Source: a bacterium | GTDB lineage: Bacteria > Blakebacterota > Blakebacteria > Blakebacterales > Blakebacteraceae | DNA length: 18,850 nt | Assembly (NCBI GenBank): GCA_025774205.1 | Contig: JALGWK010000003.1 | Coordinates: 1 to 18,850 of the forward strand | Reading direction: 5' to 3' | Part shown: one piece after another, positions 8,321-9,942 of the stretch | How the letters are laid out: every line of letters starts with the position of its first letter | Numbering within the stretch: position 1 is the stretch's first letter | The notes under the pieces: generated by a model | What the model was told of the DNA's origin: nothing | The model's input: only the letters and a program-made list of their open reading frames with translations | Database searches by the model: none | Made by a program: the position numbers and the translations under genes

Positions 8321-9355
8321 GTGGCCAGGATCAATCCTGAAAACATCGACCTTGAAGAGAAGGTCATCTATATCAACCGGACCGCGAAGGTCGTCAAGGG
8401 TGGTCGGCGGTTTCACTTCAGCGCCATCGCCGCGGTCGGCAACCGGCAGGGGATCGTCGGAGTCGGCGTCGGCAAGGCGAATGAAGTGGCTTCAGCCATC
8501 CGCAAGGCCAACGAGAACGCGCGGAAAAACCTCTTCCGGGTGCCGATCACGAACGGGACCATCCCGCATCAGACGATCGGTCGCGCCGGTGCCGGCAGAG
8601 TTCTGCTGAAGCCAGCCGGACCCGGTACCGGAGTCATCGCGGGCGGGCCGGTGAGAGCGGTACTCGAAGCGGCTGGAGTCAGGAACATCCTGACCAAGTC
8701 GATGCGGAGCAATAATCCGCACAACGTGGTGCATGCCACGATCAACGGACTGCAAACGCTGGAAGCGCCCACCGAGGTAGCGAAGCGTCGCGGTATCGAG
8801 GTCTGGGAAGTCCTCGGGATGAACGAGGAAACCTGGCGCAAGCGGCAGGCGGCCCTCGAGGCGACCATGCTGCAGGAGGCCGAAGACGCCGCCCGGCGGA
8901 GCACCGAAGATGATGTACGTAACCGGAGCGATGCCCGGACCAAGGTCGATAAGCGTCGGAAGGGTCGCAAGGCAGAGCCGAAACCCGTTCCCGTGGAGAA
9001 AGTAGCCACGCTCGAGGAGGAAGCCGCGGCCCCGGTCAAGGAAGCTGTGGCAGAGAAACCCGCCCCGGTCAAGGAAGCTGTGGCAGAGGAACCCGCCCCG
9101 GTCAAGGAAGCTGTGGCAGAGAAACCCGCCCCGGCCAAGGAAGCTGTGGCAGCGGAACCCGCCCCGGAAGAGACGACCGTGGAAGCGACCGTTGACGCGG
9201 TTGTGGAAGAGGCTGTGGAAGAGGTCGTCGAGGTCAAGGCGGAAGAGACACCGGCTGAAGCCGTCGTGGAAGAGGTCGAGGGCGCCGATGCGGAGCCGGC
9301 AGCGGAGGAAGCCGCCGAAGCCGCTGAAGAGGCTGAAGAAAAGAAGGCTGAGTAA
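8321..9355 (+). CDS. rpsE: Ribosomal protein S5 with long repetitive C-terminal tail
   Basis: S5 works in mRNA unwinding at the entry channel and in decoding fidelity. The core spans residues 1 to about 167: the dsRBD-like part ([20 protein letters not shown], then [10 protein letters not shown]) and the second domain ([20 protein letters not shown], then [13 protein letters not shown]). The start is GTG 8321. The protein is 344 residues, about twice the usual 160-170. The extension has a charged helical-looking stretch (residues 168-225), four tandem 11-residue repeats of the type [11 protein letters not shown], and a Glu/Ala-rich end ([16 protein letters not shown]). The frame is continuous and rpmD starts 2 nt after the stop. 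Confidence 0.95.
9029..9160 (+). repeat. Four-copy 33-bp in-frame tandem repeat in the rpsE tail
   Basis: Units start at 9029, 9062, 9095 and 9128, each opening gccccggtcaaggaagc (the fourth has gcc for gtc) and coding for [11 protein letters not shown] or a close variant. A truncated fifth unit (gccccggaagag) starts at 9161. The copies are almost identical at the DNA level, which points to recent expansion. The period keeps the reading frame. Confidence 0.93.
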
Positions 9356-9357
9356 CG

Positions 9358-9942
9358 ATGGCAGAGAAGAAGAAATCCTCGGCGAAGAAGACCGCCGCGA
9401 AGAAGACCGCCGCGAAGAAGACGGCCACGAAGAAGACGGCCACGAAGAAGACGGCCACGAAGAAGACCGCCGCGAAGAAGACCGCTGCGAAGAAGACCGC
9501 TGCGAAGAAGACCGCCGCGAAGAAGACCGCCGCGAAGAAGACCGCTGCGAAGAAGACGGCTGCGAAGAAGACGGCCGCGGAGAAGGCTCCCGAGGTGAAG
9601 GTCGTCACGCAGGAGGCTCCACCGGAGCCGGTCATCGAGGAGAAGGTGGAGGCACCGGAGGCTGCTCCGAAGACTGAGGCTCCGAAACCGAAGCCAAAAG
9701 TGAAGGCTGCCGCGCCGGCCGCGAAGCCGGCTGCCAAGGAACCGCCGAAGAAGGTTGGAACGCTGCGGATCACCCAGAAGAGGAGCCCGATCGGCCGTCC
9801 GGCCAATCAGAAGGCCACCCTGGTGGCGCTGGGCCTGAGGCGGATCCGCCACACGGTCGAGCACCGGGACACACCGTCCATCCGTGGCATGGTGCGAACG
9901 GTCATCCACCTGGTCGACGTAGTCGAGATACCGGACAAGTGA
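9358..9942 (+). CDS. rpmD: Ribosomal protein L30 with histone H1-like N-terminal extension
   Basis: The C-terminal part, from about residue 133 ([16 protein letters not shown], then [19 protein letters not shown], then [15 protein letters not shown]), is a complete L30 of about 62 residues, the normal size of the whole protein. Ahead of it lie a short Lys-rich start ([11 protein letters not shown]), thirteen pentapeptides of TAAKK or TATKK type (residues 12-76), and a Pro/Ala/Lys/Glu-rich linker (about 77-131). The pentapeptide resembles the C-terminal tails of eukaryotic H1 and bacterial H1-like proteins. The ATG at 9358 lies 2 nt after the rpsE stop. No other start with the L30 core downstream has a clear ribosome binding site, and the frame is open throughout, so the extension is probably translated. 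Its role is unknown; DNA or rRNA binding is inference. Confidence 0.9.
9391..9585 (+). repeat. Thirteen-copy 15-bp in-frame tandem repeat in the rpmD extension
   Basis: Thirteen 15-nt units (accgccgcgaagaag and close variants) run from 9391 to 9585. Units 3-5 read TATKK through an acg codon; the last reads TAAEK. Third-base variation (acc/acg, gcc/gct) shows that the units are not all identical, so selection on the protein or older duplication is possible. The antisense strand reads as a Phe/Ala/Val-rich open frame, which I treat as a shadow. Confidence 0.95.

Follow-up and report, generated by a model that had tools for sequence, protein, structure and literature searches.

Ribosomal protein L30 is a small ribosomal protein with a normal length of 60 residues. 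In Borrelia burgdorferi, the N-terminal extension of uL30 fills a pocket formed by H39-H42 and H89 of 23S rRNA and by 5S rRNA; helical uL30 extensions exist in other bacteria, mycobacterial bL37 is comparable, and a shorter form has been proposed for the Borrelia protein (PMC10618245). A survey of prokaryotic proteomes listed 822 regions of low complexity for the ribosomal proteins of bacteria. Lysine made up at least 30% of 77 of these, and the regions of L21 were mostly lysine-rich; lysine-rich low-complexity regions were enriched in nucleic-acid-binding proteins, and L30 is unmentioned in the survey's main text (PMC6821194). H1-like extensions arose by convergence on L22 and L23a of Drosophila (PMC548281) and on S6 and L23a of mosquitoes (PMC11764897). 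Outside the ribosome, Pseudomonas AlgP and PhaF have H1-like tails that are thought to tie granules to the nucleoid (PMC9239181), and lysine repeats are described for Streptomyces TopA (PMC7398561). Within the open-access literature, to which our search was confined (subscription papers lay outside it), we found L30 described nowhere with a lysine-repeat head. Separate publications already cover low-complexity arms of bacterial ribosomal proteins, insect H1-like extensions and N-terminal extensions of uL30. Lysine-rich low-complexity arms on ribosomal proteins are therefore known, and what is new here is the carrier and the arrangement.

The window analysed here (the whole stretch of 18,850 nucleotides) contains an rpmD gene whose product, 194 aa long and read from an ATG, is an authentic bacterial uL30 with a full-length profile match (Table 1; the stop codon is included in the coordinates). 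Pfam L30 matched residues 136-186 (74.6 bits, cut-off 23) and NCBIfam rpmD_bact (TIGR01308) residues 136-190, covering model positions 1-55 of 55 (83.6 bits, cut-off 44.65), so that the complete L30 core claimed in the first-pass annotation was borne out. It is the sole L30 detected in its genome. Based on open reading frame order and profiles, rpmD lies between S5 and L15 at its standard place in the spc operon, with the order S5, L30, L15 and SecY, followed by IF-1, L36, S13, S11, S4, RpoA and L17; neighbours named by reading their translations alone carry putative names. No promoter-like site was seen in the sequence around the L30 head. Two further proteins of the operon, S5 and L3, have acidic C-terminal tails that contain tandem repeats of their own. 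The S5 protein of the same-genus genome described below ends in an acidic tail too, of other length and sequence; L3 was absent from the part of that genome that was compared. E/A-rich regions of L3 are a known low-complexity class (PMC6821194).

Table 1. Features of the headed L30 locus, acidic tails of the same operon, and other carriers of the repeat module (positions refer to the window)
Feature	Position or locus	Strand	Evidence or detail
rpmD, headed uL30, 194 aa	9358..9942	+	ORF; Pfam and NCBIfam L30 matches; same-genus genome arranged alike
AAGAAGG, plausible ribosome-binding site	9341..9347	+	sequence; 10 nt 5' of ATG, within the end of the S5 gene
S5 stop TAA, then CG, then L30 ATG	9353-9355 (TAA)	+	sequence
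13 tandem 15-nt units, AKKTA (10) / TKKTA (3)	9382..9576	+	Tandem Repeats Finder array 9382-9585; unit listing
Pro/Ala/Lys/Glu-rich linker, residues 75-135	9580..9762	+	translation, alignment; without predicted secondary structure
L30 core, residues 136-194	9763..9939	+	profile matches; AlphaFold2; Foldseek to uL30
S5 acidic C-terminal extension, about 170 residues	8846-9352	+	Ala/Glu/Pro/Val-rich; 33-nt tandem repeat 9029-9167
L3 acidic C-terminal tail, about 76 residues	1054-1281	+	48-nt tandem repeat 1100-1217
FlpD/MvhD-like hydrogenase delta subunit with H1-like AKKT head	L048 (G000:C395), L049 (G001:C209), L050 (G002:C8), L051 (G003:C68)		
Gyrase appendages	L054 (G000:C515), L127 (G001:C158), L052 (G003:C138)		

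The head in front of the core comprises 135 residues: MAEKKKSS, 13 repeat units and about 61 linker residues rich in Pro, Ala, Lys and Glu. The first-pass annotation had described thirteen (A/T)AKK pentapeptides and a Pro/Lys/Glu linker, and the codon listing agrees, with exactly 13 consecutive units and all AAG AAG pairs intact; the extension itself is real, and only its end, placed at 9755, lay roughly two residues before the core, as the head runs from 9358 to 9762. Tandem Repeats Finder gave 13.6 copies of the 15-nt unit with 94% matches and a score of 317. The head contains 41 Lys and 11 Glu and lacks Arg and Asp, with a net charge of about +30 (about +28 for the AKKTA repeats alone), and at least 29 of the lysines lie in its first 74 residues. 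All of its 13 prolines, some of them near the core, lie outside the array. The back-translated motif KK[TA]xxKK[TA] is far above chance, since it matched 16 times in this genome and its reversed-pattern control not at all.

With 41 lysines in 135 residues, the head belongs to the class of ribosomal-protein regions with at least 30% lysine, and it is, like them, of the disordered type, often Ala/Glu/Lys-rich; the window's L30 differs in its regular 15-nt AKKTA array and the N-terminal position (PMC6821194). The H1-like composition noted at first pass was confirmed by a Pfam HC2 (PF07382) match of 49 bits against a cut-off of 40. Membership of the HC2 histone H1-like nucleoproteins was rejected as a matter of composition only: the FlpD heads described below pass PF07382 too, the stricter NCBIfam models were not reached by the head (NF038052, 27.2 against 135 bits; NF038053, 42.6 against 80 bits), and HC2 proteins are stand-alone, DNA-binding nucleoid proteins, whereas this lysine-rich segment is fused to L30. 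The sigma factors SigA/HrdB, which the head matched in the PDB, were likewise taken as compositional matches. AlgP, PhaF and TopA resemble the head as bacterial proteins with disordered lysine-repeat arms, for which an action on DNA has been shown or is assumed; the AlgP/PhaF unit, however, is KPAA, and the window's AKKTA/TKKTA array is without proline. The insect H1-like extensions are also Lys/Ala-rich arms on ribosomal proteins, but eukaryotic and on other proteins, and no homology is implied.

By prediction, a disordered head precedes a normal L30 core. In an AlphaFold2 model built on a 39-sequence alignment, most of the core reached pLDDT values above 90 and the head about 50-67; secondary structure, helix or strand, was absent N-terminal of residue 135, and the first helix did not begin before residue 149. 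Foldseek matched the core to bacterial uL30 with a TM-score of 0.96 by target length. The Borrelia extension is, like the window's, N-terminal on a bacterial uL30, but it forms a bent helix in its rRNA pocket. A helix of that type directly N-terminal to the core was considered and rejected, given the helix-free model up to residue 149 and the 13 prolines in the head; compared with Borrelia uL30 and bL37, the head is longer and repeat-based, contains proline close to the core and lacks a predicted helix.

The genus is represented by two genomes only. In the second (G001; contig JALGVQ010000052.1, MAG Meg19_1012_Bin_119, from the Guaymas Basin, where Meg19 is the name of a core taken at Megamat; PMC10290634), the arrangement is the same and the head has 129 residues. 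The ribosome-binding-site/start region AGAAGGCTGAGTAACGATG did not differ between the window and this genome, and AGAAGGCTGAGTAACGATGGCAGAGAA, which spans the S5 stop and the L30 start, was identical in both. Over the alignable codons of the window genome (G000) and G001 (NG86), dN/dS was about 0.20 for the head (0.146/0.724), 0.17 for the repeat (0.081/0.483), 0.19 for the linker (0.268/1.437) and 0.10 for the L30 core (0.053/0.545), values whose argument is weakened because slippage makes repeat units non-independent and because the repeat alignment may hide changes. Third codon positions hold 42 of the 76 differences in the head. Among the first 74 codons, 1 of 29 lysine codons was replaced, against 12 of 45 others, and an equally conservative outcome for lysine occurred in none of 20,000 simulations with the same number of changes placed at random. 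Ala, Thr and Val in the repeat part vary while the lysines are nearly fixed, and head length and charge are kept between both species. Departures from the consensus unit were synonymous in 9 of 12 cases in the G000 array (24% expected at random) and in 13 of 23 in that of G001. The G000 variants are clustered in blocks, with the three TKKTA units consecutive, which matches the expectation for repeat slippage. At sequence level, the head is coding, shared by two species in conserved form and constrained at its lysines.

We compared 113 distinct L30 proteins from broadly sampled and named genomes, a non-random set in which best-scoring matches and long-open-frame loci were kept, and a lysine-rich N-terminal stretch of at least 30 residues was present in 2 of them, both in this genus. 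The earlier view that such a head is not a standard L30 feature holds to that extent; terminal appendages as such are not unique to this protein. Lysine-rich C-terminal L30 tails were found in three other lineages (G035, G007 and G055), and the L30 of G260 has an acidic tail. In the family of G007, which is unrelated to the window's lineage, L30 was found in 20 of 21 genomes, and 10 of the 12 proteins examined (loci L180-L190 and L017) have tails of at least 26 residues. Nine L30s of the family have tails of 26-94 residues, mostly Lys/Ala/Pro-rich, and L180 and L181 are almost tail-less; L189, whose core boundary was misplaced by our script, also has a long Lys/Ala-rich tail. These K/A-rich tails (G007's family, G035 and G055) are on the same ribosomal protein as the window's head, but at the opposite terminus and with other sequence. 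Lysine-rich arms on L30 were thus gained independently, several times and at either terminus, because they sit in separate lineages, at opposite ends and with different sequences. In G035, an AKKT tail is present on both L30 and S2. The assemblies of the sister genus (G002 and G003) are incomplete, lack both L30 and L15, and are uninformative on the head.

The repeat module is not confined to L30. Across the phylum sample of four genomes (G000-G003), a FlpD/MvhD-like protein with an AKKT-type head was found in all four, identified by Pfam FlpD in the three scanned genomes and by sequence reading in the fourth. The module forms a C-terminal tail on GyrA in G000 and G001, a TSTKK-repeat head is present on GyrB in G003, and a YtxH-like protein of G001 ends in a short tail of AKKT type. 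Of 60 sampled genomes, 15 contained KK[TA]xxKK[TA]; from reading their sequences, we take its carriers to resemble trigger factor, S2, Obg, topoisomerase I, a thiolase and free H1-like proteins. The AKKT module is therefore a general, promiscuous appendage of this lineage, with L30 as one carrier, and it was not invented specifically for the ribosome. As FlpD is a redox protein, the sequence of the module alone does not imply nucleic-acid binding. In unrelated genomes, L105 (G051:C58) has a phasin-like layout with a long AKK tail and no Pfam match, and L104 and L132 (G009) are free-standing lysine-rich H1-like proteins.

The explanation that we favour, tentatively and with a little less than even confidence, is that of a genuine uL30 lengthened by a genus-specific, disordered cationic arm, which is built into the 50S subunit and binds RNA, mainly its own rRNA. 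The N-terminus of uL30 has been extended in this genus by AKKTA repeats and a flexible Pro/Glu/Lys linker, a strongly cationic arm that is predicted to be intrinsically disordered, and the full-length protein would be translated from the ATG at 9358 and incorporated into 50S. The arm may bind RNA by charge, without sequence specificity. Its first target would be the 23S/5S rRNA around the N-terminus of uL30, both while the subunit is assembled and once it is mature; own rRNA seems the likeliest target because the N-terminal extension of Borrelia uL30 contacts rRNA. The array probably arose and turns over through slippage of the 15-nt repeat, and selection would preserve lysine density and frame, not the exact sequence. 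The RNA-binding arm is supported by the head and start context in a second genome, the dN/dS values, the lysine constraint and the lack of predicted secondary structure, as well as by the Borrelia rRNA pocket, the enrichment of lysine-rich regions in nucleic-acid-binding proteins and the repeated gain of arms on L30. The same module on the redox subunit FlpD, the restriction to two genomes and the weakening of dN/dS by repeat alignment and slippage count against it.

Some alternatives concern the reality of the full-length protein. The window comes from a draft MAG (527 contigs, 85.85% complete, 4.84% contamination), which could speak for an assembly or annotation artefact, a reading that we regard as barely credible; the headed L30 is not an assembly or start-codon artefact, because the separately assembled MAG of the same genus (JALGVQ010000052.1) carries the same head, with diverged sequence, at the same place, although the precise number of units may still shift with long reads. 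The first-pass annotation would have been contradicted by relatives lacking the extension, and the closest relative has it. It is very improbable that the head is a removed leader, or is bypassed by an internal start, so that only the core is in the ribosome. A shorter form has been proposed for Borrelia uL30 (PMC10618245), and besides the ATG at 9358 the frame offers only three start codons, the GTGs at 9595, 9646 and 9700. None of these, however, sits where it can be aligned to G001, in which the in-frame starts are at other places, and none would yield a core-sized L30; no usable start lies near the core, and the head appears to be under protein-level constraint. Of the roles suggested at first pass, the rRNA arm and the DNA or nucleoid link stay candidates; the removable leader is without support, and an internal start near 9750, which would have spoken against a full-length protein, found none either, as no internal start codon is common to both genomes.

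Other alternatives accept the arm and differ on its role. Positively charged nascent chains can slow elongation, and with 41 lysines in 135 residues, and S5 stop and L30 start 2 nt apart, ribosomes might be slowed on rpmD to tune L30 and the downstream L15 and SecY, the arm being a by-product; there is no conserved stall motif, however, and on GyrA and other L30s the module is C-terminal, where braking of the carrier would not work alike, so that we consider this quite improbable. Somewhat less improbable, yet still unlikely, is a tether, in which ribosomes, or L30 outside them, would be anchored to the nucleoid or mRNA by an H1-like arm with affinity for DNA or other RNAs. The composition resembles H1 and HC2, AlgP and PhaF offer a precedent (PMC9239181), and GyrA and GyrB carry an AKKT-type module in this phylum; but the polyanion closest to a 50S protein, and the most plentiful one, is rRNA, the module is also present on FlpD, and the HC2-like score is compositional. 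A wider version is a long shot: H1-like ribosome arms would link translation with the nucleoid or a polyanion condensate, and a single AKKT module would bring L30, gyrase and FlpD together on a shared polyanionic scaffold. The main rival to the RNA-binding arm is tolerated repeat growth, an unlikely but serious possibility: 15-nt slippage would lengthen free termini in this lineage without a dedicated role, and constraint would reflect avoidance of harm (charge, solubility and frame). It would account for the blocks of identical units, for the same AKKT module on functionally unrelated proteins and for the acidic low-complexity tails on S5 and L3 of the same operon. Against it, lysine codons are nearly unreplaced while Ala, Thr and Val vary, head length and charge are preserved between species, and such filler is costly for an abundant protein.

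This locus extends the list of ribosomal proteins with H1-like arms, which covers bacteria and insects alike, to uL30. Lineages add such arms repeatedly, and L30 can receive them at its N- or its C-terminus. The AKKT module on L30, FlpD, GyrA and GyrB within one phylum, together with the family-wide C-terminal tails of L30, makes the function of these arms testable.
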